Source: Symbiodinium sp. CCMP2592
Lineage: Eukaryota; Sar; Dinophyceae; Suessiales; Symbiodiniaceae
DNA length: 64,000 nucleotides
NCBI GenBank assembly: GCA_905221615.1
Contig: CAJNDT010003157.1
Coordinates: 667,501-731,500, forward strand
Direction of reading: 5' to 3'
Position 1 is the stretch's first letter; the number at the start of each line of letters is the position of its first letter. The notes beneath the pieces were generated by a model that had not been told where the DNA came from, did not search any database, and saw nothing but the letters and a program-made list of their open reading frames with translations. The position numbers and the translations under genes were made by a program. Shown one piece after another: positions 17,947 to 56,942 of this stretch.

Positions 17947-18109
17947 CGAAGGCCGAGCCATGCGAACCCTGTGCGTGCGTCATATCAGCTATCTCATCAA
18001 GAGGGCTTTCTAACAACAAGCCAAGCCGCTCTAGAACAGAAGCTGTCTGTCTTGAAATGACATTGACATCGTGTCGAACCCGCAGGAATCCCAACCTCTT
18101 TGTAGCTTT

Positions 18110-18350
18110 TTCAGCACTGGACGACCGTGCCTACTTCCTCAATAGCATGGCATGTCCTCGACTCAGGCACAAGCGCCTGCAGTTTGCTATTGTGACAGTT
18201 CTGGCACAGAGCGCCTGAGCCTGAAGACATGGCCTCACAATCTCCAATAGGAATCGCCGGATTGAAACACTGTCAAGTCACGTATCTGATATCTGTGAAC
18301 TCACAGGACACGTGACAGCCGGCGGCTACAGATGCCTTCGAACTGTGGAC
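18110..18350. repeat. Dispersed duplicate block, copy 1
   Basis: Shares with 27240-27570 the anchors CAGCACTGGACGACC, CATGGCATGTCCTCGACTCA (one change), GGCCTCACAATCTCCAA, CGCCGGATTGAAACACTGTC and GGCGGCTACAGAT, in the same order and orientation. Non-coding. Confidence 0.65.
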
Positions 18351-23143: not shown

Positions 23144-24244
23144 CTTCCGCCGCTTACCTTTGCACGAAGGTAGACAGAAACCAATCTGGGCAGTGACACA
23201 TGTCCGAGTGCTCCACGCTGCACGGGACGGAAGCTGCAAAAAGTTGAACAGCGACCTCCGTGCTGAAACCCCCATGGGCCTATCTTGACCAAGCCTGCGG
23301 ACGAGACACCGCTGTGGAGTGATGAGCAAAGCAGCTGAGTTTGCAGGGAAGAGTGTTACCACCGAGCCCGGAACCCCAGAGTTTAACTCCAAGGAAGAGG
23401 CGGCTCTCAAAGATGCGGAGTTACGCCGCACGAGAGCGCAGCTGGAGCCAGAACACTAGTGACAAGGCACAACCTGCAACAGTATTCGGTGCTCGGCAGC
23501 CCGAGCCGAGCTCTGCGCCATGCTCACAAGTCGAAACCTTCGACAGGTACTGATACGGTCCGACCCTCCTTGCTGATTTTGTTCGTTGGCTCTGGGTCCA
23601 CTTGATGCTAGACAATGTGCAAGGCTGTACATCATCGTGCACGCAACAAGAAGTCATTCCTCCTCCACTGGTGTGCTGCGTCCGTGTGACAGCAGACTGC
23701 TGACTTGGTCAACAAATCTCCGAACCAGAGTCGGAAGACTGCTGACTTGGTCGAAAGATCTCCGAATCGGAGTCGCCGGCAGCAATACTGCAGGCGCTTG
23801 TACAAACACGTCACATCTGTTATCAGATGAGAGTCTGCGGCATGAATTTTTCTTCTAACCTCCGACCCTCTGACAGTCATGTCGCCCGAAAACCTTTGGC
23901 AACACTGCACTTGCAAGAAAAAAGAACAAGACCCGGGTTCCGCTTATGCAGTAACTCATGCAGTGTTTGCTTCGTGTTCTGGCCCGATCTGTGGACGAAA
24001 CTACTCAATGATACTTCGCAATCACAAGACTCGATTTCGGACGTCAATTTGCATCTGTTTCTACTCTGCTCAAAAGGTTCAACAGCAGCTTGTACCACAA
24101 GCCAAGAACCAAGGCTGACACAATGCTTGCCCCTCATAGGTGCCATGAGTCAAAAGCGGCACAAAGGCGAGGGGAGCTTGTCGATCCACTTCTGGAACTT
24201 TTGGGTGCACTGGTGCACCTCGCAGGATGTCCAGCTGAGATACT
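23144..24244. other. Spacer between AO3 and AO4
   Basis: About 23144-23300 corresponds to the AO leader region. A short direct repeat (CTGCTGACTTGGTC...ATCTCCGAA.C.GAGTCG) occurs at about 23696-23733 and 23742-23774. The AO4 3' stem-loop lies at 24088-24102. No independent gene seen. Confidence 0.5.
24088..24102. promoter_or_regulatory. Conserved 3' stem-loop of AO4
   Basis: GCTTGTACCACAAGC, identical to the AO1 and AO2 elements, about 140 bases past the AO4 stop and preceded on the plus strand by CATCTGTTTCTACTCTGCTC. Confidence 0.6.
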
Positions 24245-26730
24245 TTACGCGGGATACTTCTGCAGGTTCTTCTGTGGTACAGATTGAATCGGGAAGAGCA
24301 TGTCGATCACCTCTTGGGCACACCTGCAGGGACATCCGCAGCAGGATTCTACTCCACGCCCTTCTGTTGAACCCAAATCCCCATGCGCGCCTGGCCCCAC
24401 TTTCGTACGCACCGTGTGCTGTCCCGAAGTACTTTGGGTGCGTATGCTCTCCGCCAAAGAAGACTCTTCCAAATGGCTTGCCGAGAGCCCCAAATGCGTC
24501 TAGTGATTGACCGGCGGACAGGTAGGACCATGAACCCAAGAAGCGCCGATCTCGCCCCCAGTTCGTCAAGTTGGTCTCTACGGGATCTGGAACATCGCGA
24601 CCCAGGCAGCAGCGCAACAAGTTCATGACCTTTTCCGGTGCAGAAGTACTTGAGAAACCGTCTGCCACAATCCAGGCCACCAAAGAGCGGCTCGAACGTG
24701 GCTGGTTAGGATATAAGGCGAATATCCTCCGCTCCTCGTTTCGACAAGCGAGAGCAAGATACGAAACACAGCGACTGCACAAAAAGCCAGTCTAAAGCAG
24801 GCCTTTTGTATCTTTTCACCCCGATGCAACGTGAAACAGTACAGAACCCCGCGAACAGCTCGCGCCAAGGCTCCCAATCGTTGAGGACGGCATTCCGATA
24901 TCCATCACGCTCAGGTGGCCACAGACAGTGAACTCCATGCTTCAGAGTTTCCCAAGTATCGTTGTCAAACGTCAAGATGCACTTCTCCACATGCCCAAAT
25001 CCCATCCGTTGAATGGCTTCTTGCTTTTCCTGCGGAAGCTCCGGCTTGAATCGAATCTGCCCTGACTTCAGCACACCCACAGACACCGTCACCACAACCG
25101 TGCGTGCCAGCAGCTTATCACCATTTTCCAACGTGATCCGTACATGGTCATCGTGACTGGTCACCTCTGTCACCACTGCATCGTACTGAATGTCGAAGTC
25201 TAGAACGCAGCTGTCCCAACTTTTTATGGTGACCTCTCGACTTGAGGAGATGTCTTGGCCATCTTGACTCCTCACTCTCACCTCCTTCACAGATGCATCA
25301 AGAAACTCACTCTTGACGGTCCTCTCTCGGCTGATCTCTGCACGGCCATCGCGAATGGTCACCTCCTTCATGCTGTCCTTCACAGATGCATCAAGAAACT
25401 CACTCTTTCCGGTCCTCTCTCGGCTGATCTCTGCACGGCCATCGCGAATGGTCACCTCCATCATGCTGTCATGCCAGACGTGCGAGTCTGTCAGCAGCCT
25501 GTTGACGATGGATTCGTACGTGTGAATACCCAAGGCCCGAACATCTTCCAGCAACGCTCGAACGATGGAAGAATACCCGAGGGGCAAGGGGATGCAGTTA
25601 TGACCCAGTACATCGTCGGCACTGGCAAAGCCGTTTGCACTCACGGTATATAGGTCCGGGCTTCCAACATCGGACGACAATTCACGCTTCTTAAATTCAA
25701 ACATTGTTTGCAGCGTTGTGGGATCATGCTCCGTGTGCTGCGCCCATTCCTGGAACTTCTCATCCAGCAAAGCTCCTAACGACACTTCATCGGCTTGCTT
25801 GCCGAGCGCCTCTTTGTCCGTGAAACGGTCAAACGCGTTTTCCATTTCTTCAAAAGCTTGCTTCTCGGCCGGGGAAGCTTCTACTCCGAGCAACTTCCTC
25901 GGAGGCTGCCAGCTATGGTCGGACACGAACGTCCTCATCGCATCAGCAGCTATCGCCTCGGCCAGGGTGCGACTCGCGGTTCTGGGCCCTACGGTGACCC
26001 TGCAGCCTTCTGCATGAAGACAACAGACCAAGTCAAGTTGCATTCCATAGCCCAGAGAGCCCTCCTTGCATCCATGGTTTTATGCAAACGTGTCACAATC
26101 ACAACATGCAGCACCTCAGACTGGCTCGGGAAAGTTTTGAATGAACTGGCCTTGTCCGCAAGTTGCCCCAGTGACTTCTGCAATGGCCCGGTGGGCCCGG
26201 TGGAGAACTGACTGCTTGGCTGTGTGTCTGGCAGCCGTTTCTTTCTCAGCTTCAGCAGGAATGCCATTCTGCGCAGACGATACCTTGGGCAAGTGCCGCA
26301 TCGGCCGGTCCTCCCACCTCCATTCAGGGTCGGACATCCAATCCTCCCGCAGCAGACCTCTCCTCATGGCAAAATCATAGATCGCCTCGGGGATCAAGCC
26401 CTGCGCAATGCAGGCCAAGACGCACAAGTTCCGCCAAGAAAACGCCACGAGAGCAGCCAAGAGGCATTCCCCCGTTCGCCATGCACCCAGGCGGCTCCCA
26501 GTTCAATGGTCGAACCGTTGTGAAGAACATGAGTTTTGGCACGGCCTCCTGGACCGGTCAGAGTGCATAAACATCGTTCCTTCGATCCCCGCATACCCCT
26601 CAGGCTGGCCTGGTCTGGATGTGGCTTCCAAGACTTTGATGCGGCGCCGCTGCATGCCATCGCTGGCGCGAAGATGCCTTGCACAGGAAATCCCCGATAT
26701 CCCTGCTCCGATGATTGCCACATCCACCAT
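24245..26730 (-). pseudogene. Rearranged amine oxidase AO4 (probable fusion of two copies)
   Basis: The most divergent AO copy. Exon 1 26730-26610 (121 nt, MVDVAIIGAGISGISCARHL) and exon 2 26548-26463 (86 nt, GGRAKTHVLHNG...GERGNA) match the family, but the base pair where the other copies have the GC donor reads TC. Exon 3 starts at 26385 (AIYDFAMRRGLLREDWMSDP), then leaves the family sequence. From 26043 the same part of exon 3 begins again in a different version (AEAIAADAMRTFVSDHSW then LLGVEASPAEKQAFEEME) and continues normally, so the locus looks like the 5' part of one AO joined to the 3' part of another. Exon 3 also carries a 31-codon tandem duplication. Exon 4 is about 24734-24391 (344 nt). 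The last exon (24323-24245) has a changed C-terminus, CAQEVIDMLFPIQ plus 12 residues. Coding frames are mostly open, so it may still be expressed as a variant. Confidence 0.62.
25284..25469 (-). repeat. 93-bp (31-codon) tandem duplication in AO4 exon 3
   Basis: Two adjacent 93-bp units (25284-25376 and 25377-25469) differ at only a few bases and keep frame. Each encodes MEVTIRDGRAEISRERT-like residues, followed by KSEFLDASVK. A third, more degenerate version (EVRVRSQDGQDISSSR) lies at about 25225-25283. The unit resembles the normal EVTSHDDHVEITLENGDKL beta-hairpin that follows it, so it may have arisen from that hairpin. Confidence 0.88.
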
Positions 26731-29641: not shown

Positions 29642-32602
29642 GAGTATTTTGATGACGTCGCAGTCCTGAGATCTGCAGCAACGGGGACAAAAACAGTGGC
29701 TGTGCTACGCTCACACGCCGGATCCTGCGCCGGCACCTCCGGCGTGGACGAGGGCATGCTTTGCTTAAGCTGAGCTGTGGGGCCGCACTTGTGCTCTCGA
29801 GGCTGCGTCTAGGCGCGCCAACGATCGAAGTCACAGTAGCAGGGACAGCCCCGGCACGTGCACTCAAGTGGTCAAGAGACTGGCTTATGTACAATGTGCG
29901 AGCGCAACGGGCTCTTGACACCTGAGACGAAGCGAACAGCACTATCCCACCGTTTGACCACAAACTTCAAGGCTTGCAGGTTGCACGGACAGGGAGTGCA
30001 CACGGCGAGCGATGCAAGCGCACTTTTGTTCCGACGTGCCCGGAGAGGCTGTGGTATCGCAGGCTTCTGCCAGCTGGGCCGAGCGGGCAAGCTGAAGGAG
30101 GCTGATCGACAAGAAGCCGGAACAACGAAATCACCGAACCGCCGACTCGACTGCTACGCCGGCACACACACACACACACATAAGCCCTTTCTTATTGACA
30201 GAAGAAGAGGGCCAACTACTGTGGAAACTGCAAGGGAGCAGCGTCTCTCTGAACCAGCTGTAGCAACAAAGCGTCTGCCCCGCGCCATGAGCGCAAACGT
30301 GCACAGCGACATCCGGCTTGCGGGACGTCTCGGCCGCGGCTGAAATATCAAACATTGAAGCAAGCAAACAGCCAGGCGAGTATTTTGATGCCGTCAAAGT
30401 CCTGAAATCTGTGGGACGGCATTTGGCAAAAAAAGTCCTCCAGGTACAAGGCCTGTGCATAGCTGTGCTACACTCACACGCCGGATCCTGCGCCGGCACC
30501 TCCGGCGTGGACGAGGGCATGCTTTGCTTAAGCTGAGCTGTGGGGCCGCACTTGTGCTCTCGAGGCTGCGTCTAGGCGCGCCAACGATCGAAGTCGCAGT
30601 AGCAGGGACAGCCCCGGCACGTGCACTCAAGTGGTCAAGAGACTGGCTTATGTACAATGTGCGAGCGCAACGGGCTCTTGACACCTGAGACGAAGCGAAC
30701 AGCACTATGCCACCGTTTGACCGCAAACTTCAAGGCTTGCAGGTTGCACGGACAGGGAGTGCACACGGCGAGCGATGCAAGCGCACTTTTGTTCCGACGT
30801 GCCCGGAGAGGCTGTGGTATCGCAGGCTTCTGCCAGCTGGGCCGAGCGGGCAAGCTGAAGGAGGCTGATCGACAAGAAGCCGGAACAACGAAATCACCGA
30901 ACCGCCGACTCGACTGCTACGCCGGCACACACACACACACACAAGCCCTTTCTTAGTGACAGAAGAAGAGGGCCAACTACTGTGGAAACTGCAAGGGAGC
31001 AGCGTCTCTCTGAACCAGCTGTAGCAATAAAGCGTCTGCCCCGCGCCACGAGCGCAAACGTGCACAGCGACATCCGGCTTGCGGGACGTCTCGGCCGCGG
31101 CTGAAATATCAAACATTGAAGCAAGCAAACAGCCAGGCGAGTATTTTGATGCCGTCAAAGTCCTGAAATCTGTGGGACGGCATTTGGCAAAAAAAGGTCC
31201 TCCAGGTACAAGGCCTGTGCATGGCTGTGCTACGCTCATGCGCCGGATCCTGCGCCGGCACCTCCGGCGTGGACGAGGGCATGCTTTGCTTAAGCTGAGC
31301 TGTGGGGCCGCACTTGTGCTCTCGAGGCTGCGTCTAGGCGCGCCAACGATCGAAGTCACAGTAGCAGGGACAGCCCCGGCACGTGCACTCAAGTGGTCAA
31401 GAGACTGGCTTATGTACAATGTGCGAGCGCAACGGGCTCTTGACACCTGAGACGAAGCGAACAGCACTATCCCACCGTTTGACCACAAACTTCAAGGCTT
31501 GCAGGTTGCACGGACAGGGAGTGCACACGGCGAGCGATGCAAGCGCATTTTTGTTCCGACGTGCCCGGAGAGGCTGTGGTATCGCAGGCTTCTGCCAGCT
31601 GGGCCGAGCGGGCAAGCTGAAGGAGGCTGATCGACAAGAAGCCGGAACAACGAAATCACCGAACCGCCGACTCGACTGCTACGCCGGCACACACACAAGC
31701 CCTTTCTTAGTGACAGAAGAAGAGGGCCAACTACTGTGGAAACTGCAAGGGAGCAGCGTCTCTCTGAACCAGCTGTAGCAATAAAGCGTCTGCCCCGCGC
31801 CACGAGCGCAAACGTGCACAGCGACATCCGGCTTGCGGGACGTCTCGGCCGCGGCTGAAATATCAAACATTGAAGCAAGCAAACAGCCAGGTGAGTATTT
31901 TGATGCCGTCAAAGTCCGGAAATGTGTGGGACGGCATTTGGCAAAAAAAGGTCCTCCAGGTACAAGGCCTGTGCATGGCTGTGCTACGCTCATGCGCCGG
32001 ATCCTGCGCCGGCACCTCCGGCGTGGACGAGGGCATGCTTTGCTTAAGCTGAGCTGTGGGGCCGCACTTGTGCTCTCGAGGCTGCGTCTAGGCGCGCCAA
32101 CGATCGAAGTCACAGTAGCAGGGACAGCCCCGGCACGTGCACTCAAGTGGTCAAGAGACTGGCTTATGTACAATGTGCGAGCGCAACGGGCTCTTGACAC
32201 CTGAGACGAAGCGAACAGCACTATCCCACCGTTTGACCACAAACTTCAAGGCTTGCAGGTTGCACGGACAGGGAGTGCACACGGCGAGCGATGCAAGCGC
32301 ACTTTTGTTACGACGTGCCCGGAGAGGCTGTGGTATCGCAGGCTTCTGCCAGCTGGGCCGAGCGGGCAAGCTGAAGGAGGCTGATCGACAAGAAGCCGGA
32401 ACAACGAAATCACCGAACCGCCGACTCGACTGCTACGCCGGCACACACACAAGCCCTTTCTTATTGACAGAAGAAGAGGGCCAACTACTGTGGAAACTGC
32501 AAGGGAGCAGCGTCTCTCTGAACCAGCTGTAGCAACAAAGCATCTGCCTCGCGCCACGAGCGCAAACGTGCACAGCGACATCCGGCTTGCGGGACGTCTC
32601 GG
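29642..32602. repeat. Tandem array of four A units (~736-761 bp each)
   Basis: Units begin with GAGTATTTTGATG at 29642, 30378, 31139 and 31893. Each holds CGCCGGATCCTGCGCCGGCA, CTTAAGCTGAGCTGTGGGGC, GGCGCGCCAACGATCGAAGT, GCCCGGAGAGGCTGTGGTAT and a (CA)n tract, and ends near GGACGTCTCGGCCG. Units 2-4 are almost identical; unit 1 is more diverged at its start. The CA tracts have 9, 9, 5 and 5 repeats (ending near 30180, 30943, 31697 and 32451). Frames of similar length recur on both strands because of the repetition, not because of genes. Confidence 0.88.
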
Positions 32603-33460
32603 CCGTCGGGAGGGCGCACATGCCTTCTTCCGCGTCAAGACACCAAACGTGAAACCTTCTGCAAGCACGAGGTGCTCCTGAAGCAAGCAAGAACCCGACG
32701 CGCCGTTTCTACCGACGTCCGCTTCGGCGTGCCTAGCGTGCGAGACAGCCTGTGAAGCGAACCACAACAAGAGCGTGCTCCAGCTTGCCGGCAACCACGT
32801 CCCTTGCCGGGATGGCCACACGAGGATCTATCTGGTTCGACGCTGCAGGTGGCATTTCCGGACATCTCACCTGCCTTGCGGCCTGGCAAATTAGCAAATT
32901 ACCGCCAGAATGAAGAGCCACTGCCTCGCAAGTGGAGGGTCTGCAGATTCTGGAAGTTTCCAGATTGTCAAGACCTTCGGCAGCATGTCAATGTGCGGAT
33001 CCTCCTTTCCGGGGGGACTGAATGCATCACGGCTGGATGGAGGAGGCTTGAAGCCAGCAGGCAAGAGGCCTTCAGACTCACAGTGCCAGCTAACAGGGAT
33101 GCGTCACACTCAACCATTGCCTGTCACCCTGCCGTGCTTGCACCAGGACGCGAAGTGCGTCAGACCCCAACACTTGTGACTTGCATCTTCAGCATTCCAC
33201 GCACGGCAGAAACCAGTGCTAAGAACTCTGGGATACCGTCTGGGCGGTGCATGCATCAGGCAGAGGTGCTGGCAGTGCTCTGAGGCCGCACATGGCCACT
33301 CCTATGCAACCGTGGCTTTTGTGCATCTGCCACTGCAGCATGATGGGTGCATATTGTGACTGGAAGAAGACACACAGCTTCAAGAAGGCTATTGAAAGCT
33401 ATCTCAAGCTGCCGCAGCCCAAAGGGGCTGAGCTCCGACCTTTACACTCCCGAAGCTAGC
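32603..33460. repeat. Unclassified B unit following the A array
   Basis: Collinear with 28226-29000, 61945-62690 and 63660-64000. Contains GTCGGGAGGGCGCACATGCC, TTTCCGGACATCTCACCTGC, GATTGTCAAGACCTTCGGCA and CTCAACCATTGCCTGTCACC. Non-coding as far as can be seen. Confidence 0.75.
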
Positions 33461-35127: not shown

Positions 35128-35132
35128 CATAC
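35128..35132. repeat. Target-site duplication CATAC (left)
   Basis: CATAC directly abuts the TG end of the left LTR and matches CATAC at 54825-54829 beyond the right LTR. Five base pairs is the usual duplication length for LTR elements. Confidence 0.95.
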
Positions 35133-35564
35133 TGCGTGGGGGATTGATCTCGACTTGGTTGCTGCTCTCCCCACCAGAGCTGTAATGAATGTAGGTGTGG
35201 CTGGCTAGCACTCTCCACAGACTGGACCCTGTCTCTCCCTCTTACTCCCACACGTGCGATCCTATGCAGGCAGAACCGGCGGCCGTTCCTTTTGCACTCA
35301 CTGCCGGCGGCGGTTCGTCTGTGCAACGGGATAGCTCTGATTGCTCAGGATAGAAGACACATATAGCACTTAGCTATGGGCATTGACTTGAGCCAAACGT
35401 TGCGTTGGCGGTCACATAGAAAGGTAAAGATGAGGGATGCGTAGCATGCCCCCTAGAGTCGAGGGACGCGTAGCGTGCCCCCTTCTCTTGCACTTTACAC
35501 GGTCTTGCTCACAGCTCTTATAGTGACACCTTAGAACTTGACAAGGCATCGCAGTCCGTTCGCA
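35133..35564 (-). repeat. 3' LTR
   Basis: 432 bp, identical to 54393-54824 except for one base (TTAGAACTTG versus TTAGAACATG). Contains an internal 29-bp direct repeat (GAGGGATGCGTAGCATGCCC at 35432 and its variant at 35461) and, on the minus strand, TTTGGCTCAAG at 35397-35387. Confidence 0.97.
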
Positions 35565-35570
35565 CCCCCC
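35565..35570 (-). other. Short polypurine tract
   Basis: On the element's sense strand GGGGGG sits immediately before the 3' LTR, where the plus-strand primer is expected. It is short for a polypurine tract; the upstream bases (CAACTCAT) are not purine-rich. Confidence 0.6.
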
Positions 35571-35814: not shown

Positions 35815-38800
35815 TCAGGCGTTGTCTCGCCACCATCTTCGCGTTGACGTAGGATCGCGGTCCCAGGGCCGGAGGTTCTCCTCTGGATACTGGTTCCTTG
35901 GCTTTCCTTTGTCCTTGCCTTTGTTTCGGCCTTTGGCGGCGATGTAGTCGTGGTAGGAATTGGTGTTCCAACCACCATGTTGCTCGCCTCCGGTTCTTCC
36001 ACGCCCTTTTGAAGGTCCCTTGGATGAAGAAGCGCTTTCACGTTCCTCCGTAGTGACAGGCGTGTCCAGGATGGATGTACCACCTGGAGGAAGATAGTCA
36101 GCGGCCGAAATGTGGTGTAGGGCTTCCGTACGCTTTGTCGTCGGGTTTTGCTGTCTCTCAGTTTTGGATCTGTTCAATCTGTCCATGAAATGCGCAGGCA
36201 TTTGCACACTGTGGTCCACCAGCAAGGCGATGGTCTGGACTGACTGATCAGAATGAGTCAGCAGAATACCGACGGGGTCGATGTACAAGAAGTCCACTGG
36301 TCCAGTTGGCGTTGGTCGTAGCACTGAGAATTGTTGGTGTCCCGTCACCATTGGGATCACCTCGCACAGGACGTTCAGGCAACAAAAGTGCATAGCCTTT
36401 ACATCTTCATCCCTGTCGCTCTTCAAGTAAGTAGTAGGGTTGAAGTTGTCCCTGCCAATTCCCATCATGTTGGCTCCCCGTACAAGTAAAGAAAGCATCT
36501 GGTTCGTCCGGAAGCGCTTCAAGGTGTAAGTCCCGTTGGGATCGTACTGTTTGAGGTTCTCAGGTTCCTTTGCAAAGCGAATGATCTCCTCCTCAGTCAC
36601 GTCCCTGCTCACACTCGTTTCCCTATCCACTGCTGCCAAAGATCCCCACTTTCCAAGCACATCATAGCGTTGGCCAAGTGCGAAACTTTCCCTCATCTGA
36701 AACAACGGCATAGTCGCCCACTTTGCGAATCCTGACCAAGCTTTGTAGATGGATCTGCATACCACGTATGCCATGTACGAAAGGGCGGTCATGTTCGCGT
36801 CAATGCAATGGGCATTTCGCTTTCCAGAATAGTAAGATGGCTGCATGGCGGTACGTGCAAGTTGTAGCTCAGGATCGATGTTCAAAGACTGGCCGGTAAT
36901 GAAGACGGGACGACGTTCCTGTGCGATTGCTTCTGGAACTGCGTCATCAAAGTCCTCTCCAGGCTCGACGTCCATTTCTTCATCAGGTTCCTGTTCTGGA
37001 TCGTCTTCCGCGATGACAGATGGTTCTGGGATTTCTTCAGGTTCCGCAACGGTCTCTACCTCCATGGCTTCCTGCTCCTCTTCGGGCGCCTCAGGCACTG
37101 CGGCTGCTGCGGCTTCCATTGTCTGAGCAATGAAGTCACTGGGGATCTCCGTAGGAGTCTCCCGTTGTGGAGAACCTTGGTAATATCCGCTCGAAATGAA
37201 CTGTGACCAGCAAGACGTGCATCGGGAGAAACATGCTGGAACGATGTTGTAGCATGCCGGGCATACCCTCATTCTCCGTCCATCCTCGTCTCTGCGTAGG
37301 TCTTCGGGTCGCCAATTCTTGATGACAAACTTGATTCCTTTGTCCATGTAGTGATGCCGAACCGTGTTCTCCCTGTGGGACTCCAGGACAGTCGTGAGGT
37401 CACGAATGATCTGCTCCTTGCTTGTGTCGTGGGGTCCAGGAGGCATCTCGCAAAGCAATTCCATGATCTTGCTTGGCGTTCGGTATCTCTCGAACTCGGG
37501 AAGCAACGGTGATGCATTGTAGTCCAACACCAGCTCTTTCTCCAACCTTTCATCGTAGATCTTTTCCACCAGAGCGAAAGAGTGTGTATCTCGAGGATCA
37601 GGGACGCAAAACCATACCTCCTTGACGAAATGGAAAGGTATCGTTCGACCAACGATCATGATGCCGCTGTCTGTGATACGTCCATCCTCTCGTGCAAGAT
37701 CTTGCGATGGGACATGAAGGACCGCCAATGGCATGTGCTTGGCGTCTCGTCCGTGTACTCGCATCTTGGTCGTTGCATTCCGGTGATCGAACGGCGCAAA
37801 CACCCCCCAATAGCTGTGGAGTCTGCCGCCTTGGTTGCCTCGGAATTGGCGCCTATGGTCGAAGTCCCCGTCGGGGTCCTCCGAACCAGGCATGATGCCT
37901 TGCGTGACAATGGAATCCAAGTTGCGGCATGCCGTAGCGTGGAACGCACCTCCAAGACGTTGCAAGAGGGTCATAGATGGAGATATTGCGAACCTGTTCT
38001 TGTCCAACTGAAGCAAGTTGTTCTGGGGATCTGAATGCGCAGAGTGACCACTCGTAGCCCGAACTGCCCATGGCTTCACCCAGCCGTTGCATAGGTTCAG
38101 GTACCTCTGGCCATGCCGGCAATGGTCGTTGTTCTGGATCTCCGTGATCTGGTCCCGAACTGATACCAACATGTTCGAACCTGCTGATCCAAGAACTTCC
38201 GTGCCGGGGTCCTTCACTCTCACACCCAGGAACTGCAACCGAATCTTGGCCTTGTTGCGTTTCGTGGCTGCAATCATGTTCCCCTGGAACAATAGCTGAA
38301 GTCTTTCATTGTACACTCTCTTCTTCTGTTGATCATCGGTCCTTGAGACCCCTTCGGTGATGCGTCTGCTTTCATGGGTCCATAGTGGCTCATGCCTCAC
38401 CAAGTCTTCGATCATCACCCATCCTCCTTCATCACATTTGATGACACTGTTGAATGCCACCTGGCACCTGTTGTCAAGCCATTCCGAGCCTGGGCGCCTG
38501 GCGATTCTGTGGCGCAAGTCAGACTGGATGCATGATAGCGCCCAATCCGCGTTCAACCTGCGCTGACGGGTGATGTTGCGAAGGACAACTTCGTTCACGA
38601 TGTCCCACCGATTGTTGATGAAGCTTGCACCCTTGGTTGGGATCAGGTCGAGAATCCCGCACCGGATTGGCCTTCCGCCGCCGATGGATTCATAGCCTGG
38701 ATTGGTGTAGCTATGAGTGTTCTCGTCGTACACAAAGCTAGGACGGTCTCCTCGTTGAGGTAGGCGTCGGTCGCGATGGTCCGAAAGCTGCTCAATGATG

Positions 38801-41800
38801 TCCACCACTCGCTGGCTATTCTCTGGTCCCGATTCCTGCAGTGGTACGCCACAAGCATCATTTAGGCCCCGACGATTCTCCACATCCGTGCAGAGATTGT
38901 GTTTGTTCTCATAACGGATCAAGACCACATCACCCCGTACGGCTTCGCCTCCGCGTCGCGGTCGGGCTTTGGCCTTGGGTCGTCGGTCCGAGGAAGCGAC
39001 ACTCACATGATCTGTGGTGTCAATGTCCATTGGCTCGGCCTCTTGTGTAGATACCCGACGTGGATATCGAAGAAGACTTTCTTTGATAATCTGGACGCCT
39101 CGAAGTACCAGATCCCGGGTTGCAGCATTCTCCGTGCAATTTGACAGAGTGTGTAGGTCACTGCCACAAGCAACACAGAATGTGATGCGATCGCTTCCGA
39201 CTGACATCTCGCCCTGAGCGAGTACGCCAACATAGTCCTGAAGCTGCGTGACAAATCCTTCACGAATTGCATGCCTGGGATCAGGGCCTTCTGCACCTTG
39301 CTCTTCTTCGGGTTGCGCATCCACATCCACATCCTGTGCAGGTATTGGTGGAGCAACTGAGAACCCTGGATCGTCCGTGACGTTGTCAGCGGCCTGTGTC
39401 TCGTCGGTTCTCGCAATCTCTACAGGGTAGATATCACCATCGACGATCACTGTGAAATCAATCACGAGGTCAGCGGACATGTTGTTGACGATCTCAGCGA
39501 CTGCTTCATTCTTCTTGGGCGGTGTCCTTTTGCGCGGGGAGTCAACCGTGATCAGCTCGATGGCTTCGGCCGACGCGTAGCGGAAGAATGACCTTTCGAT
39601 TCCTCTCGCGCACGCATTTGCTCCCTCAAGGCCACCCCAATTCATGAAATGACTTGGGTGTCTCATTGCAATCGTAAGAAGCCCGAGCGCCAGCTCCACT
39701 GTGTCACCCAGGAGCTCTTCCTTGGGCAAGACTGACCCTCGGTAGCATTCTTGGCGCTCTTCTGGAGTCAAAAGCATCCTCATGAAACCAGCATAAGCGC
39801 AGTTCCCGGCGTCGTAGTAGCAGATGTAGCATGTTTTGCCTTCGGAGTCGTACCCTCTGTCCCATGCCAACTGTTTGGCCTTTCCCCATGCCGCGTACTC
39901 GATGGCCTGACTGGCTGTGATTCGGAGACCACCGTAGTGAGAAACCGTCTTGCCGATGTCTTCATAGACCATCTCTGCACAAACTTTGAGGAACTCCTTG
40001 ATGTCCACGCGAGGATCCACGAATTGAAGCCTCAGGTCATAAAGGTGCTTTGCGCAAGCCAAGGTGTACTTCTGGGACGTGATCAAGTCATTGAAGGAGC
40101 TGATTTGATGCTGCATCTTCAAAGCTGAAGTATGCGCGCACCCAATGCAGTGTCCAGGATACCCGTTTCCGGTCGGCTTGAAGAAGGCTTGTGCGTAGCA
40201 CTCAGCCAACTTCATTGCTTCACATCCAGAGCAATAGAACGTTCTCCCTTTGACATAACCAGTGTTCGGGGTCGCATAGGTGTCGATCCTGAACCAGTAG
40301 TGCCTGTTGTCGTAGTAGGCCTCGGGAACGGTCATGGCGATGTCAAAATCCTGCCAGGTGACTGTGGACGACTCAGCGACCGTGTCACCCTGGGCACCCG
40401 ACCTGATCTGTTGCTGCTGTTCCCCCGTAAACCATGTCTGCGAAATCTTGGTGGACGTCTTGACTTCACTCTTGTCCTCCCAAATCTCGACAAGCGACGG
40501 GTGAGCGACTGAGTCGGTTCGGACTGTTTCGTCCCATGAGCGAACTTTCGATGCCTCAACAAAGCACGTGGATACCATCTTCTCGCAGAACAGCTGCTTC
40601 TCATAGATAGCTAGGCCCAATTTGAACCTGACCCGATTGTCCGGTGGTGGCACCTTTTCGACTGACAGTGTATGCACGCCTGACGACGCATGTTTCGCCT
40701 GACTGTACATTCTTGACCAAAACGAAGATCCATGAATCACCACACATGCTCGGGCCCGCAACTCCAGTTCAATATACATTCCCAGCGCGTGGAAACCGTT
40801 GAACATAGAAGCTTTCTGTCGAAGGTAATTGCTGGCTGCTCCTACGAACCGTAAGTCGTGGTTGATGTTGACAATTGGAGGGCGCGTGGTACGCTTCCCT
40901 GCCGCAATGATGGGGTCAACGTACGTGGCCTTGAGCTGTCGCTGCAAATCAGCACGAATCGCTGCTCCGTCTCCGACCTCACTCATCGGAAATGATATGT
41001 TCTCGATGAGGATCGCTTGGAGAGACAGATGGTAGTGCAACGTGACGGTTGCAAGCTGCTCTTCAGTCAAGCCATCCAATGTCTCATTCACAGATTCCAA
41101 CGATCCCTTTGTGACTTGGAAGTTGTAGTTGGCACCTGCGGTGATCGACGGGCTCACAATGTAGATCTCACTCCATCCATGCATGACGAGATTCTCTCTC
41201 ACTGTATGCGATGACCCTCTGGTCCTTGCGACCATGTCAAAGTCTTGGACGAGGATTGTGCATTGAGAGCGCATAGTCGCGGCATCAGGCTTGCCACCCA
41301 TACCCAAACTATTGCGAAATCCGTTCAGCGTGTTCATGGTGTTGATCCTTGCTTCTGCCGGAATTTCATCGTTGTCGACAAGATCGCTGTCTGCCTCGAT
41401 CATCACAGCCGAGGTAAGCATTGGAGGAGAAGGAAGATGCACACACGACACCAATGCCAATGCATGGTACAGCCGCGAATACATCCGTAACCACATCTTC
41501 GTGCTCAGCTTCACGTAGACCTTCAGGTTGAGACCCTTATCGTCACTTTGAGAGACGGATCGAATCCTTGCCAAGTAGGTCACCAGTCTTCTGACGTAAT
41601 GCTGAATTGGTGTGGTCCCCACGTCGTGGTTGGCCACGAACTTTGGCGTCTCATCAATGGTAGGTGGGTACTCGTCTTGATCACGGGTCGTCGCCAGCAA
41701 ACTCGAGCGACAGCCCTTTTCATCGATGTTGACATAATGGTACCAACTTTCCTGAGCGCCAGCGGGGATTGGAGCTTCCTCCCATGTCGGTTGCGATGGT

Positions 41801-43317
41801 TCCTCTTCCGGTTGCGAAGTCGGTGGTTGTGGAGGAGGTGCCGCAGAAGATGATGACGCCGATGCCGTTGCCTCGTCCGTCCTTGCCCTCTTTGGTCCGT
41901 GGCTAGGGGTGGCTCGAGGCTCGGTAGCGGATCCTTGTGATTGTCCCGGCGTTCTTCCATGCTCAGGGTGCACGATTCCTTCCGGTTCGAGGTTGCTTGC
42001 CGTAGGCATCGCCACCCTCCCCGTTGAGTACACCCAGCTAGGATGCCGTTGAAGATTGGGCGGAAATAGGCCATCATCTTGCATAAGCGGTCTTGGTGCC
42101 CCCATCTGTTGGAATTCTGCTTCCCATATGCTCAACGTGGCGCGTTTGGTAGAGCAGTCGACCACATACCCAGATTCAACTCCGCATTGATTCCAGGTGT
42201 AGCTACGGAACGCATCCGGCAATTGGAAGCCGTTCCTGTCTTGATCTGCACATACAGCATCCACGTGGTGCTTGAGGAAAGAGTACGTGGTGTAGTCGGA
42301 ATCAGGGAGCACATCATTGGACCATCTGTAATGCGGGTGTCCAGTGTCTGGATCAACCCATGATACGTAGGAATGAAGCACGTGGAGACAGACACTGAAC
42401 GCCTGGAGCGAGTTCATCGCAAAGGCGAGCGGGTGTCCCATGCCTTGAGGCATTGTGCGCATCATCAGGGCCAGCTGGTGAACGTTGAGTGGCGTAGCGC
42501 CATCGTTGTTCGCAGCACATTCCTGGTTGTAGGTCCGTAGTCCATATCCAGTGTGTTTCGCGAACATGTACATCAGCTTGCACACCCTACATAACGTAGG
42601 CTCCGCCAACAGGTCTGATTGGTCAGGTGCTCTACCCGACATTGGCAACTTGTGGTAGTAGTCCTGATTCACCGTATACCATTGTTGAATTCTCGTGTCT
42701 GTCACAGTCTGGTAGGGCGTCTCCACGGAGTTGATGAGAACGGCGAGGTTGTAGTAGCCGTCCGCACTGACGATGTTCCTTGTTGCAGTGTTCAAGTCGA
42801 ACCGAACTTGCTTTCGTTCTTGTTCCAGTTCAACCACAGCCAATTTTGCATCATCGCGGATCACTTCCTCATCCACCATGAACCTGGTGATGGCATTGAA
42901 CTTCCCCTCGTAGTCAGCAACAATGTGTTTGAGACCTCCACCAAACTTAGTGACCATGGCGAGTATCTCCCCATAGGGTTTGTCCATGTACTCCTCAGGA
43001 GCAGCAAGCAAGCAAGCTTTGAGGATTTCTCGGACTCGAATGGAAAGATCTCCTCCTGACGACAGATTTGCACACGTGAACAGCAAGACCAACGGAGGTG
43101 CTTTGAAAGCTGCCCATGTGCGAATGAGATCATTGTCGACCACTTTGTCTTTCGTAATCTTCGGCGGGAGCGAGACGCTCTGCGACGAATCCCCAGAATA
43201 CATCTCCAGGAACTTGTGGAACTTCAGAAACGTTCGCATCATCCCACCAGACGGGAAAACTTCTTCGTGGTCCACTCCATCGAAGGCCAGCTCGTAGGCA
43301 TTGTAGCTTTCAGCCAT
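35815..43317 (-). CDS. Retrotransposon ORF2: 2,500-aa protein with a Tpt1/KptA-like domain
   Basis: Starts at the ATG at 43317, 112 nt after the ORF1 stop, and runs without interruption. Residues 1-420 have no recognised fold; 420-520 are Pro/Ser/Gln-rich. Zinc-binding-like clusters occur near 1035-1065 (CSGCEAMKLAEC...CIGC) and 2005-2030 (CPACYNIVPACFSRCTSC); 2040-2120 is very acidic; the C-terminal ~100 residues are basic and Gly-rich. Residues about 1590-1905 match the Tpt1/KptA RNA 2'-phosphotransferase pattern in order: DLRHRIARRPG (R1602, H1603), GGWVMIEDLV (1631 on), NKAKIRLQF (~1688), WAVRATSGHS (R1753), GAFHATACRNLDSIVTQGI (H1793) and GRDAKHMPLAVLHV (R1857). In that family an Arg-His-Arg-Arg set binds NAD+ and the 2'-phosphate. 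Such enzymes remove the splice-junction 2'-phosphate from ligated RNA, or ADP-ribosylate or cap 5'-phosphorylated ends. Its role in the element is inference. No transmembrane segment is seen, so it is not envelope-like. Confidence 0.85.
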   Translation of the reverse strand: MAESYNAYELAFDGVDHEEVFPSGGMMRTFLKFHKFLEMYSGDSSQSVSLPPKITKDKVVDNDLIRTWAAFKAPPLVLLFTCANLSSGGDLSIRVREILKACLLAAPEEYMDKPYGEILAMVTKFGGGLKHIVADYEGKFNAITRFMVDEEVIRDDAKLAVVELEQERKQVRFDLNTATRNIVSADGYYNLAVLINSVETPYQTVTDTRIQQWYTVNQDYYHKLPMSGRAPDQSDLLAEPTLCRVCKLMYMFAKHTGYGLRTYNQECAANNDGATPLNVHQLALMMRTMPQGMGHPLAFAMNSLQAFSVCLHVLHSYVSWVDPDTGHPHYRWSNDVLPDSDYTTYSFLKHHVDAVCADQDRNGFQLPDAFRSYTWNQCGVESGYVVDCSTKRATLSIWEAEFQQMGAPRPLMQDDGLFPPNLQRHPSWVYSTGRVAMPTASNLEPEGIVHPEHGRTPGQSQGSATEPRATPSHGPKRARTDEATASASSSSAAPPPQPPTSQPEEEPSQPTWEEAPIPAGAQESWYHYVNIDEKGCRSSLLATTRDQDEYPPTIDETPKFVANHDVGTTPIQHYVRRLVTYLARIRSVSQSDDKGLNLKVYVKLSTKMWLRMYSRLYHALALVSCVHLPSPPMLTSAVMIEADSDLVDNDEIPAEARINTMNTLNGFRNSLGMGGKPDAATMRSQCTILVQDFDMVARTRGSSHTVRENLVMHGWSEIYIVSPSITAGANYNFQVTKGSLESVNETLDGLTEEQLATVTLHYHLSLQAILIENISFPMSEVGDGAAIRADLQRQLKATYVDPIIAAGKRTTRPPIVNINHDLRFVGAASNYLRQKASMFNGFHALGMYIELELRARACVVIHGSSFWSRMYSQAKHASSGVHTLSVEKVPPPDNRVRFKLGLAIYEKQLFCEKMVSTCFVEASKVRSWDETVRTDSVAHPSLVEIWEDKSEVKTSTKISQTWFTGEQQQQIRSGAQGDTVAESSTVTWQDFDIAMTVPEAYYDNRHYWFRIDTYATPNTGYVKGRTFYCSGCEAMKLAECYAQAFFKPTGNGYPGHCIGCAHTSALKMQHQISSFNDLITSQKYTLACAKHLYDLRLQFVDPRVDIKEFLKVCAEMVYEDIGKTVSHYGGLRITASQAIEYAAWGKAKQLAWDRGYDSEGKTCYICYYDAGNCAYAGFMRMLLTPEERQECYRGSVLPKEELLGDTVELALGLLTIAMRHPSHFMNWGGLEGANACARGIERSFFRYASAEAIELITVDSPRKRTPPKKNEAVAEIVNNMSADLVIDFTVIVDGDIYPVEIARTDETQAADNVTDDPGFSVAPPIPAQDVDVDAQPEEEQGAEGPDPRHAIREGFVTQLQDYVGVLAQGEMSVGSDRITFCVACGSDLHTLSNCTENAATRDLVLRGVQIIKESLLRYPRRVSTQEAEPMDIDTTDHVSVASSDRRPKAKARPRRGGEAVRGDVVLIRYENKHNLCTDVENRRGLNDACGVPLQESGPENSQRVVDIIEQLSDHRDRRLPQRGDRPSFVYDENTHSYTNPGYESIGGGRPIRCGILDLIPTKGASFINNRWDIVNEVVLRNITRQRRLNADWALSCIQSDLRHRIARRPGSEWLDNRCQVAFNSVIKCDEGGWVMIEDLVRHEPLWTHESRRITEGVSRTDDQQKKRVYNERLQLLFQGNMIAATKRNKAKIRLQFLGVRVKDPGTEVLGSAGSNMLVSVRDQITEIQNNDHCRHGQRYLNLCNGWVKPWAVRATSGHSAHSDPQNNLLQLDKNRFAISPSMTLLQRLGGAFHATACRNLDSIVTQGIMPGSEDPDGDFDHRRQFRGNQGGRLHSYWGVFAPFDHRNATTKMRVHGRDAKHMPLAVLHVPSQDLAREDGRITDSGIMIVGRTIPFHFVKEVWFCVPDPRDTHSFALVEKIYDERLEKELVLDYNASPLLPEFERYRTPSKIMELLCEMPPGPHDTSKEQIIRDLTTVLESHRENTVRHHYMDKGIKFVIKNWRPEDLRRDEDGRRMRVCPACYNIVPACFSRCTSCWSQFISSGYYQGSPQRETPTEIPSDFIAQTMEAAAAAVPEAPEEEQEAMEVETVAEPEEIPEPSVIAEDDPEQEPDEEMDVEPGEDFDDAVPEAIAQERRPVFITGQSLNIDPELQLARTAMQPSYYSGKRNAHCIDANMTALSYMAYVVCRSIYKAWSGFAKWATMPLFQMRESFALGQRYDVLGKWGSLAAVDRETSVSRDVTEEEIIRFAKEPENLKQYDPNGTYTLKRFRTNQMLSLLVRGANMMGIGRDNFNPTTYLKSDRDEDVKAMHFCCLNVLCEVIPMVTGHQQFSVLRPTPTGPVDFLYIDPVGILLTHSDQSVQTIALLVDHSVQMPAHFMDRLNRSKTERQQNPTTKRTEALHHISAADYLPPGGTSILDTPVTTEERESASSSKGPSKGRGRTGGEQHGGWNTNSYHDYIAAKGRNKGKDKGKPRNQYPEENLRPWDRDPTSTRRWWRDNA

Positions 43318-43429
43318 GGCTCGGGTTTCGGTCCTTCCTCCGTAGGAGGGAAGTCCCTACACCCTACTCGACTTCACGGTTCCGGGTTCTCCGTAAGAGG
43401 CACCCTTCCCCGATCCGTCTGGTCAGACC
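43318..43429 (-). other. Inter-ORF gap with possible stem-loop
   Basis: 112 nt between the ORF1 stop and the ORF2 ATG. CTTCCTCC-GTA-GGAGGGAAG on the plus strand (43332-43351 region) can form a short hairpin with one bulge. Nothing shows how ORF2 is translated; spliced-leader trans-splicing, reinitiation or an internal entry site are all possible. Confidence 0.5.
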
Positions 43430-46400
43430 TTAGTTGTTCCTTAGTTGGGGCTGTCTAATAGCCCCTTCATCAGCGTCTACACACTGATGTTGCTGCCATG
43501 CAATGTCCTCAGATTCATGTGCAACATGACTGACACTGACATGAGCTCGAACAAGGCTGCGAACATTCCTCGCAATTGACCGCCATGAGACATCAATGCG
43601 CTGCGACAAACTGTTCTTCGAATCATGGTCCAAGCAATCATTCAGTCTCATCACCAAACGGTCCGCTTCAGGCATGTTAGAGAACATGATCCTGCGTCCA
43701 CCACCATCGCCATCAGCACCAACATGATCATCAACCTTAACCTTCGTCACCTTGCCACTTGAAACAAGAGCATGCAACTCTGGCCAAGACCAACATGAAC
43801 ATGAAGAAGGCATGTCAAGCGAAAAATAGACGTCGGAAAATTCCGCACACTTCTTCAGCAGGCGTTTGAGAGATTTCAAGACACTTCTGAAAACCTTGTA
43901 CTTCCCACCAGAACGTTTTTCACCCCCCACGCAAGCCCCTTCACTACTTCCAGGACCAGCACCTGATCGCAAAAGCGATGCCACGAATAGCACAGGTGTG
44001 CGCAGGTCGTTCCGGCACGCATCCTTCATCATACCGATAAGGCTGTCCTCATCGGCTTTGGAGCTGATCAGCTCCTTGCAAGTTATGCGAGAGCAACCCT
44101 TAGTGGACTTAGGTACGGCGTAGCCGTTACCCAAGCCACAGAGGTCAACAATCATGCGGTCTGGCTTCCGTCCACCAGCCTTCGACGGCATGGCTACCAA
44201 TCTCCCATCGCCAGTTGCCTGAAATTTCAAGGCTTTAAGCAATCTTCTGGAGATTTGGCTAGTCAACTCGCATTTATCAGATCGATCCTTAGCGTCCGAA
44301 TCAGTCATGTGCAAATGTTTGGACGAGCACACATCAGACGACTTAGGATGCAACGCGACGTTTGCGGCAATGTACTCCCATTCATCCTTGCAGTAGCCGA
44401 GCTCAACGGCGGTTCCAGGAGATACAGGATCCCGAAAGGTATAACGCTGCCCGTGAGTGCATCCTTGGATCTTGATGCTCTTCCACATGGCATCTTCCTG
44501 AAGTCCCTTGTACTGCTTGGTTTCCTGGACTGGTACTCGAGGAGGCACTTCGATGATGATTTGGAACCCCCATGATGCCGCTCTGCGCGCAATTCTTTGG
44601 ACGACCTCCCCCCATGGGTAGTCTGTCCGCAATTTGGCCTTTTCAGGGTTGTCAGCGATTTTCCGACTCAGCCACGAATTCTTGCCCAACACCCCTGCAC
44701 CAATGAAGATTACGGAGTTAGGGTTGTCTTTCTTTGCTTCCACCACATCAAAGATGTAGGCGCACATGGCGTCGTCAACTTCTCGCCCCATACTCAGAAC
44801 ATTTACTTGCAGCCCAGGGTCGTAGTGAGAATCGGGAGCATGCTGGGCGATGCAATCCTTGCCTGGAGCATACTCATTCCACCAGTTCTCCTCATCGACT
44901 CCTATCAATGTCCATACCGTCACTGCCTTTGGAGCATCTTTGATAGTGATACGGTACTTCCACCGGCTGTAAGGATTCTTGTAAGCATGGACCAACCTTC
45001 CATCGTGGTCGAGGAATTGGATCACCAGACCCTCCTTGGGCTTGTTTTCGGCGAAATTGACCACGTGAGGCACAATTGCTCCATCATATCCTTGATATTC
45101 CCTTTTCTGTTCCGCCGCATCATGCCATACATCTTCGTACACCGACGACCATTGGTCATAACCAAATTGAGAGGCTTGACTTTTGGATTGGCCGTTGAAA
45201 CAAAATCCCTGGTGCAATGTAAAGCCCTGGTACCCCCCATGGATGGCACGCGCCAGTGTGACAACCACCGCTCGCCATTTGGCGGGCAGGGCGCGCACAT
45301 AAGACTGGCCTAGAGGCGGTTCAGGAATAGGCAAAAACGGCGGCGCAAGGACGTCCGCAATGGCAGCGGGGCGCAAATGCCCCCGCACGGGATGGTACTG
45401 AAACACAGCACGTTCCACGTAGCGGTCGAACTTGCCCGGTGTGTCAAGGATAGCAGCACGATCCTCCATCTGGTGCCACTGCCCTTCACGAAGAATCCAA
45501 GTCGACCGAAGGTAACGACCAGGCGGCAACGCAGAAGGCGGCCCCCGCAACATGCGCGGGAACTTGACAACCAGGATGGGGTCCACACTGTCATGTTCTT
45601 GCAAGCCTTCCTTACTCGACAATCCAGCGCGATACAACACCTGAGGGAGGATCGGCGTCTGCGTGTAAGGAAAACAAGGCACCTCGCTCTTGAACGAGTA
45701 GTGCTGCTGACCCTTCTCATCCGTACTTTGGGTATGAGTAGGCCGCATCAGATCCATAATCTCTTGGGAGCCGATGAGATCCGGCGGAAAGATGTTGATG
45801 AGCTGACACGCATGTGTCCAGGACACGGAATCCTTGAACGACTTGGTGTGTATGTCCGCGGACATCTTGGCAGTGACCTCATAGGCAAGAGAAACGTAAC
45901 CTTCCTGAAAGATAGAATGCATCCATCCAATGCAGATACCGTGGGTACGTTCCAAGTGACGCATAGTCGGATTCTTGCCCGTGCGAATCACCCCGATCAT
46001 GGTCTGGTTGTCGTCGTAGAAGACGAAGTTGGGGTCTTGCCCCCCAAGCTGCTGCCACAACGTGATAGCAGGCAATCCAAGACGTGACATGGCAAAGTCG
46101 GCCGCGACAATCTCGGCCTCAGGTGTGGAATGACTCAAGCATCCCTGCCTTTTGCTAAGTCCCGCCAAGGGAAATCTTGTGTGAGAACCTTGAATGTGCA
46201 AGTGAGCACCGGAGGTAGATTTCAAACTTTCTCCACAACCTGCATAGTCCGCATCTGCAAACAGCCCGATGGACGAGTCCTCCAAGGAGTTCCCGACCCA
46301 TCCAATCATCATGTGATGTTTGGACTGGTGCACATAGGCCATGAGATGATGAAGAAGAGCATCCTCCTTCTTGGTCCATTTCGTGATCTTGCGTGCGAGA

Positions 46401-54328: not shown

Positions 54329-54392
54329 TGTGGTCGTAGTAGATCAAGTAGTCGTTGCTGTAGAAAGGCAGAGCCGCGTACGGCTGATAACC
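54329..54392 (-). other. Retrotransposon leader with primer-binding site
   Basis: 64 nt between the 5' LTR and the ORF1 ATG. Directly next to the LTR the sense strand reads GGTTATCAGCCG (54392-54381). It resembles the copia-type site TGGTATCAGAGC with one shift; its complement CGGCTGATAACC also looks like a tRNA anticodon stem-loop (GG-CTGATAA-CC), as in elements primed by a half-tRNA. Which tRNA is used is unresolved. Confidence 0.6.
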
Positions 54393-54824
54393 TGCGTGGG
54401 GGATTGATCTCGACTTGGTTGCTGCTCTCCCCACCAGAGCTGTAATGAATGTAGGTGTGGCTGGCTAGCACTCTCCACAGACTGGACCCTGTCTCTCCCT
54501 CTTACTCCCACACGTGCGATCCTATGCAGGCAGAACCGGCGGCCGTTCCTTTTGCACTCACTGCCGGCGGCGGTTCGTCTGTGCAACGGGATAGCTCTGA
54601 TTGCTCAGGATAGAAGACACATATAGCACTTAGCTATGGGCATTGACTTGAGCCAAACGTTGCGTTGGCGGTCACATAGAAAGGTAAAGATGAGGGATGC
54701 GTAGCATGCCCCCTAGAGTCGAGGGACGCGTAGCGTGCCCCCTTCTCTTGCACTTTACACGGTCTTGCTCACAGCTCTTATAGTGACACCTTAGAACATG
54801 ACAAGGCATCGCAGTCCGTTCGCA
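54393..54824 (-). repeat. 5' LTR
   Basis: 432 bp, TG...CA, one difference from the 3' LTR. It carries the transcription start for the element by position. The sense strand contains TTTGGCTCAAG at 54657-54647, identical to the last 11 bases of the dinoflagellate spliced leader. Confidence 0.97.
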
Positions 54825-54829
54825 CATAC
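54825..54829. repeat. Target-site duplication CATAC (right)
   Basis: Matches 35128-35132 exactly and continues into the interrupted CATACATACA microsatellite of the host. Confidence 0.95.
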
Positions 54830-55765: not shown

Positions 55766-56100
55766 TCAAGTATCCATCATCATCATCATCGCCGGCATCA
55801 CCACCATCACCGCCGCCGCCATCATCATCGACTTTCTTCTTCTCTTGAAGGTTCATCATCCACATCATCGTTGTATCCGACATCAACATGTTCAGCGCAC
55901 CACTGCACGACAAAAACGATAAAGAAAATTAGCAATCAGAACCCAAAGAATCAAGTTTCTCGTGGTAGTGGTAGTGGTCACAGTCGCTGTAGCGGTTGTG
56001 GTCGTGGTGGTGTTAGTGGTAAAGGTGGCCGTGGCGGTCGTGGTAGGGTACCTATACGGAAGTGTGGTAATAGTAGAAGAAGTAGTCGTAGTCGTGGTCG
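55766..56100. repeat. CAT/CAC microsatellite and GGT-rich lead-in
   Basis: CATCATCATC/ACCACC triplets at about 55785-55830 and GGTAGTGGT/GGTCGT-rich sequence from about 55960. No gene in between. Confidence 0.7.
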
Positions 56101-56173
56101 TAGTCGTCGTAGCAGTAGCAGCAGCAGTAGCAGTAGCAGTAGCAGTAGCAGTAGCAACAGCAGTAGCAGTAGC

Positions 56174-56220
<47 letters not shown>

Positions 56221-56942
56221 CAGTGGTGGTAGTGGTAGTGGTAGTGGTAGTGGTAGTGGTAGTGGTAGTGGTGTAGTGGTGTAGTGGTGTAGTGGTGTAG
56301 TGGTGTAGTGGTGTAGTGGTGTAGTGGTGTAGTGGTGTAGTGGTGTAGTGGTGTAGTGGTGTAGTGGTGTAGTGGTGTAGTGGTGTAGTGGTGTAGTGGT
56401 GTAGTGGTGTAGTGGTGCAGTGGTGTAGTGGTGTAGTGGTGTAGTGGTGTAGTGGTGTAGTGGTGTAGTGGTGTAGTGGTGTAGTGGTGTAGTGGTGTAG
56501 TGGTGTAGTGGTGTAGTGGTGTAGTGGTGTAGTGGTGTAGTGGTGTAGTGGTGTAGTGGTGTAGTGGTATAGTGGTATAGTGGTATAGTGGTATAGTGGT
56601 ATAGTGGTATAGTGGTATAGTGGTATAGTGGTATAGTGGTATAGTGGTATAGTGGTAGTAGTGGTAGTAGTGGTAGTAGGTGGCAGTAGTGGTAGTAGTG
56701 GTAGTAGTGGTAGTAGTGGTAGTAGTGGTAGTAGTGGTAGTAGTGGTAGTAGTGGTAGTAGTGGTAGTAGTGGTGGTAGTGGTAGTAGTGGTAGTAGTGG
56801 TAGTAGTGGCAATACCAGCAGTCGTCGTCGTCGTAACCGTGGTTCTACTGGTGGTGACGGTGGTGCTGGTGGTGCTGGTAGTGCTGGTGATAATGCTACT
56901 GCCGCGTCTACGTGTTACAGGCAGTTGCCGATGTCGCAGTGC

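Follow-up and report, generated by a model that had tools for sequence, protein, structure and literature searches.

A diverged Tpt1/KptA RNA 2'-phosphotransferase domain in the second open reading frame of a copia-order LTR retrotransposon

The 64-kb stretch of DNA analysed here (the window) carries on its minus strand a 19.7-kb LTR retrotransposon with two large open reading frames, of which the downstream one, ORF2, contains in its middle part, between the LTRs, a domain that is almost certainly a true if diverged homologue of the RNA 2'-phosphotransferase Tpt1/KptA. The catalytic tetrad of this domain is apparently intact, its fourth member being less surely placed, and we predict from its sequence that the domain is probably active as an NAD+-dependent 2'-phosphotransferase. 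Tpt1 takes 2'-phosphates off RNA using NAD+, and some members of the family use the same tetrad to ADP-ribosylate 5'-phosphate ends (PMC6582358). The combination of a Tpt1/KptA domain with a copia-order retrotransposon appears to be new. The features of the element are collected in table 1; residue numbers of ORF2 refer to the open frame starting at position 43356 (P0001) and exceed by 13 those of an earlier, sequence-only reading of this DNA.

Table 1. Features of the retrotransposon and of its Tpt1/KptA domain, by position in the window
Feature	Position	Strand	Basis
Target-site duplication CATAC, left copy	35128..35132	.	Same as 54825-54829
3' LTR, 432 bp, TG...CA	35133..35564	-	Direct repeat, ends read
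GGGGGG adjoining 3' LTR, end of possible polypurine tract	35565..35570	-	Sequence read
ORF2, first ATG to stop (open frame 35815..43356, 2,513 aa)	35815..43317	-	Stop-to-stop listing
Cys-rich CxxC...CxxC stretch behind the Tpt1 domain, zinc-ribbon-like	37210..37263	-	Sequence; also in P0008, P0025
Tpt1/KptA domain, residues ~1604-1926 of the open frame P0001	37579..38547	-	Pfam, profile comparison, structure model
Probable tetrad residue R1845 (GRLHSYWG)	37822..37824	-	One alignment, to E. coli R125 = Cth R121; conservation
HAT motif, counterpart of NAD+-contacting Tpt1 HGT	37933..37941	-	Alignment
Tetrad residue R1706 (KIRLQF)	38239..38241	-	Aligned to E. coli KptA R69
Tetrad residues R1615 and H1616 (LRH)	38509..38514	-	Aligned to E. 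coli KptA R21, H22
ORF1, 3,637 aa	43430..54343	-	Stop-to-stop listing
Putative primer-binding site GGTTATCAGCCGTACGCGGCTCTGCC	54367..54392	-	First 17 nt complement tRNA-Ile(GAU) anticodon arm
5' LTR, 432 bp	54393..54824	-	Direct repeat
Target-site duplication CATAC, right copy	54825..54829	.	Sequence read

The sequence-only reading had assigned the central part of ORF2 to the Tpt1/KptA family on the basis of six motifs within an open frame. The frame is confirmed and all six motifs occur in the order given, starting at residues 1614 (LRHR), 1644 (GGWVMIEDLV), 1701 (NKAKIRLQF), 1765 (VRATSGHS), 1805 (FHAT...GI) and 1869 (GR....MPLAVLHV), and the family assignment is supported by Pfam, by profile-profile scores compared with shuffles and by structural comparison. 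In the profile search that the reading had proposed, a 379-aa slice with the domain passes the cut-off of PF01885 (28.5 bits against 26, E = 1.9e-6); ORF2 taken whole scores 22.9 bits, under the same cut-off (E = 9.8e-5). A profile of the domain family, built from 29 of 49 aligned rows after the 20 rows with a coverage of 60% or less had been left out, scored 54.1 (probability 93%) against a profile made from seven Tpt1 sequences of bacteria and archaea, whereas 100 column-shuffled Tpt1 profiles reached at most 24.5. This alignment is confident over residues ~1765-1825, and an alignment of three rows with Tpt1 (probability 94%) extends to residue 1903.

Other searches gave weaker signals. The seven-sequence Tpt1 profile, run with hmmsearch over the relatives, scored 13.6 bits at best and 11.7 bits on the window's ORF2 (E 4.4e-4 for that small set), and NCBIfam returned for the slice two weak RNA 2'-phosphotransferase matches (E 0.01 and 0.15) far under their cut-offs. 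Searching the PDB with the domain sequence yielded no match at E<=10, and the three-row profile found there two chance matches to male-specific-lethal-3 protein (E 0.3 and 0.41) and no Tpt1, so that the evidence for homology comes from Pfam, from the comparison of profiles and from the fold. PHROGs gave one match each for ORF2 (E 0.34) and ORF1 (E 0.3), both of unknown function, and none of the 29 stretches of viral contigs that fit peptide patterns of the domain was confirmed.

Structural comparison of the predicted model finds both the winged-helix RNA lobe and the ART NAD lobe in the domain. The best 11 structural matches are all Tpt1/KptA and span both lobes; both lobes are aligned in 17 of the best 50, and every one of these is Tpt1/KptA. 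A chance resemblance, or an ADP-ribosyltransferase fold other than Tpt1, is extremely improbable in view of these two-lobe alignments, of the far lower shuffled controls and of the Pfam matches among the 49 aligned sequences, where PF01885 is the sole family found in more than two members (15 match it at E<=1; the next family matches 2).

The tetrad described for C. thermocellum Tpt1 (Cth) consists of R18, H19, R68 and R121 (PMC6333775). These letters were confirmed in the 6e3a sequence, and their equivalents in E. coli KptA are R21, H22, R69 and R125. A forced full-length alignment places R1615, H1616, K1704 and R1706 of the domain opposite E. coli R21, H22, K67 and R69, and R1845, at which the model has low confidence, aligns with E. 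coli R125 in the three-row alignment and is unaligned in the full-length one. As judged from these alignments, the predicted tetrad comprises R1615, H1616, R1706 and most likely R1845. The catalytic set suggested earlier (R1602, H1603, R1753 and R1857 in the numbering of that reading) thus holds for its first two members; alignment to E. coli KptA and Cth Tpt1 replaces the other two by R1693 and, less surely, R1832. R1753 (R1766 in our numbering) is the arginine of VRATSGHS, present as R in 31 of 33 sequences; its counterpart in the alignment is E. coli R80, a residue outside the tetrad. R1857 (R1870; R in 12 of 20) falls in the forced alignment on E. coli R143, the equivalent of Cth R139, described as an arch arginine over the NAD site (PMC6333775).

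Conservation among the relatives is high at all four sites (R1615, R in 40/40; H1616, H in 37/40; R1706, R in 42/45; R1845, R in 29/32), and RHRR is found in 19 of the 22 rows of the 49-row alignment that cover the four sites, the window's own row being one of the 22. The full-row exceptions are P0020 (RHRL), P0022 (RHRT) and P0039 (RYRR), and six incomplete rows (P0028, P0040, P0043, P0045, P0047 and P0048) deviate at a site that they cover. In the counterpart of the Tpt1 HGT motif, the H and T are kept and the G is replaced by A. The long insertions relative to cellular Tpt1, the HAT in place of HGT and the tetrad losses in some relatives would suit a module of a particle protein that binds RNA or has a structural role and is catalytically dead. 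We consider such a role very unlikely because the family is highly diverged and yet only 43 of 100,000 random four-site sets were as conserved as the tetrad (21 of 100,000 when drawn among 55 Arg/His sites), related rows being taken as independent in both tests. An active 2'-phosphotransferase is the reading that we prefer.

Relatives of the domain were recovered as 2 proteins among 694 long candidates and 46 among 4,668 domain-sized candidates. The tree of the 29 rows totals 9.6 substitutions per site, indicating an old family and not a single odd copy. One relative of 2,490 aa (P0003) shares ORF2 over almost its full length at 75%, with 77% in the domain and 74% in the remainder. Two others come from Symbiodinium: P0004, from Symbiodinium sp. 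KB8, is 42% identical, and P0064, a partial protein from S. microadriaticum, is 97% identical over ORF2 residues 1231-1835 and 98% over residues 1994-2197, and lacks the C-terminal part of the domain including R1845 because its gene model omits residues ~1836-1993. The gene model of P0004 unites RVT_2, the ORF1 tail and the Tpt1 region, which we take as evidence of adjacency and not of a fused protein because gene models in such genomes can join neighbours. Most of the other relatives stand in records that show no context. Elsewhere in ORF2, the region 540-1300 has at least 10 relatives among 8,000 scored candidates, and an alignment of residues 526-1277 contains no Pfam family in more than 1 of its 11 members at E<=0.1. 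Conservation within ORF2 peaks in a 100-residue block inside residues 1101-1300 (39457-40056, minus strand), with 91% to P0003 and 83% to the next relative.

The retrotransposon setting, also claimed by the sequence-only reading, is borne out by the LTRs and by the copia-order domains of ORF1. The LTRs form a direct repeat flanking both ORFs and differ by 1 mismatch in 427 compared positions, 406 bp being identical in one run. That the LTRs are almost identical and the frames open points to a recent insertion. The element is probably autonomous, and its host, judged by the two Symbiodinium relatives, is probably a Symbiodinium or a closely related dinoflagellate; the 5-bp CATAC duplication is weaker evidence than usual because its flanks are CATA-rich. 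By the succession of domains in ORF1, the element is of the Ty1/copia order. CCCH fingers are followed by an aspartic protease (gag-asp_proteas at 1376, E 5.6e-4, under its cut-off), by motifs at 1618-1760 that are presumably those of the integrase, by SH3_retrovirus (at 1819, E 0.017, under its cut-off), by the copia-type reverse transcriptase RVT_2 (at 2415, E 6e-8, over its cut-off) and by motifs at 2692 that are presumably those of RNase H. The tail of ORF1 past the RNase H (43430-45900, minus strand) comprises ~800 aa without a Pfam match, and a similar tail is present in the KB8 gene model.

ORF1 and ORF2 are in different frames and are separated by 112 nt (43318-43429). The predicted RNA fold of this gap is no better than that of shuffles (z -0.20), so there is no case for a structured recoding signal there. 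Trans-splicing may be one option for the expression of ORF2; a search of the 64-kb window for a spliced-leader relic with <=3 mismatches found none.

The surroundings of the element are repetitive in several places. Direct repeats of ~760 bp occur at 30000-32700 to its left (searched from 30000), with related copies at 61423-63986 to its right, so the element sits between two blocks of one repeat family, and 56038-56900 is taken up by long arrays of GTAGTG-type microsatellites with periods of 8 and 9 bp. Farther to the left, a scan of 10 of the 34 listed ORFs found FAD-enzyme ORFs in an apparent tandem duplication at 10457-26079 on the minus strand, comprising amine oxidase ORFs (10457-11593, 15713-16621, 21489-22985 and 24709-26079) interspersed with GMC oxidoreductase ORFs (13295-14488 and 19759-20880). 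An ORF with a HYR domain (5327-7099, minus strand, E 2.9e-15) and a PDZ-domain ORF (2049-3527) were also seen.

The sequence that follows the 5' LTR, whose complement ends in ...GCGTACGGCTGATAACC, has no TGG within 40 nt of the LTR. Since this triplet is missing, the normal 3' end of a tRNA is unlikely to be the primer, and we rejected priming by the CCA end of a full-length tRNA. A 14-base core of the site had at least 120 matches in viral contigs, and the 127 loci examined contained 51 tRNA genes. Among the matches listed, two fall in tRNA genes, both of them tRNA-Ile(GAU) and both exactly on the anticodon arm; one spans 17 nt, 14 of which are given by the construction of the search, and the genes compared come from viral contigs. 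Neither tRNA genes nor Rfam families were found within the 64-kb window. We interpret the site as a likely half-tRNA primer site for a tRNA-Ile(GAU)-like molecule. Such priming has precedents, as copia is primed by a half-tRNA and Ty5 by a tRNA that RNase P cuts in the anticodon loop (PMC5371799). The sequence-only reading had suggested that the element may use the domain to mend or modify its RNA or its primer tRNA, or to escape RNA damage; for the suggestion about the primer, the half-tRNA-like site offers some indirect support.

We infer that the domain is packaged with the element RNA, where it would bind NAD+ and strip 2'-phosphates from RNA in the replication complex of the element itself. 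In one concrete route, a tRNA would be cut in its anticodon arm and its 5' half would prime minus-strand synthesis. If a metal-independent RNase cut this tRNA or the genomic RNA, the ends would carry a 2',3'-cyclic phosphate and then a 2'-phosphate, and Tpt1 would move the latter onto NAD+; the resulting end or junction, with a clean 2'-OH, could then be used in reverse transcription or RNA sealing. That the domain is both active and acts on its presumed substrate, the RNA or primer of the element, is possible at slightly less than an even chance, and the half-tRNA route in particular is rather doubtful. We offer just as tentatively the fuller picture of a dinoflagellate copia-order lineage that has built NAD+-dependent 2'-phosphate removal into its replication, with tRNA halves as primers and Tpt1 cleaning the primer end or the RNA-DNA junction.

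The domain might instead work in the other Tpt1 mode and ADP-ribosylate 5'-phosphorylated RNA or DNA ends, so that an ADP-ribose cap would shield the RNA or cDNA of the element from exonucleases or sensors. On 5'-phosphorylated RNA ends this reaction is carried out by human TRPT1 and by a KptA of Streptomyces, in TRPT1 by means of the same tetrad (PMC6582358) that is largely retained in the window's family. That paper, however, describes the 2'-phosphotransferase activity as conserved among diverse homologues, and no feature of the element indicates a capped 5' end; we therefore regard this mode as unlikely. It is likewise improbable that the domain acts in a conflict with the host and, outside normal replication, mends tRNA or RNA of the element after cleavage by a defence RNase of the host. 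Viral RNA repair or counter-defence has been proposed for the KptA proteins of phages and RNA viruses, including those in polyproteins (PMC9503650), and the capture of DNMTs shows that dinoflagellate retrotransposons acquire host enzymes (PMC5890265), but such systems also require an RNA ligase and end-processing enzymes, and Pfam and PHROGs recognised no RNA ligase, kinase or end-processing enzyme in ORF1 or ORF2, although the host could provide them. Removal of 2'-phosphates from the element's own RNA or primer is the function that we favour.

No description of Tpt1/KptA in a retrotransposon was found in the openly licensed literature, as judged by titles and abstract openings at the top of long result lists, which for these best-ranked results agrees with the sequence-only reading, whose author knew of none. 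Terms for Tpt1/KptA and for retrotransposons both occur once or twice in the available text of two genome papers (PMC4053983, PMC3549820). A survey of viral proteomes reports KptA in a few RNA-virus polyproteins, and the word retrotransposon is absent from its available text (PMC9503650); DNA methyltransferases are present in dinoflagellate LINE and DIRS-like elements (PMC5890265). The domain family is already known, as are the order of the element and the capture of enzymes, and it is only their combination that appears new. Tpt1/KptA is widespread, and what it does beyond tRNA splicing in fungi and plants is an open question (PMC6582358, PMC6333775). A retrotransposon family that has kept the catalytic residues over deep divergence confines the hunt for a substrate to a limited setting, the RNA and the primer of the element, and it adds an RNA enzyme to those known to have been captured by dinoflagellate retroelements. 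If the proposal is true, this would be, as far as found, the first retroelement that carries its own enzyme for the repair of RNA ends, joining the biology of tRNA halves to reverse transcription.

In Drosophila copia and yeast Ty5 the integrase precedes the reverse transcriptase, the copia primer is tRNA-iMet, and to our knowledge neither element has a second ORF with Tpt1. Both resemble the window's element in being LTR elements with a primer site that fits an anticodon arm, and the Ty5 primer is tRNA-iMet (PMC5371799), in contrast to the tRNA-Ile(GAU)-like primer suggested here. With SymbioLINE-Dnmt and SymbioDIRS-Dnmt3 the element shares its nature as a dinoflagellate retroelement bearing a nucleic-acid-modifying enzyme with its key residues kept; those two are LINE and DIRS-like elements concerned with DNA methylation (PMC5890265), whereas here a Ty1/copia-order LTR element carries an RNA 2'-phosphate enzyme. 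A KptA in the polyprotein of an RNA-replicating parasite is also found in Beihai picorna-like virus and Botrylloides leachii nidovirus, which are however positive-strand RNA viruses and not reverse-transcribing elements (PMC9503650). Compared with cellular Tpt1/KptA proteins (E. coli KptA; CthTpt1, 6e3a; TRPT1, 7yw2 and 7yw3), the domain has in common the two-lobe fold, the tetrad (less surely in its fourth member) and the GHS and H-T motifs in the same order, but it lies within a 2,500-aa retrotransposon polyprotein, measures ~320 aa against ~180, and differs by its large insertions, by HAT for HGT and by the Cys-rich stretch that follows it.
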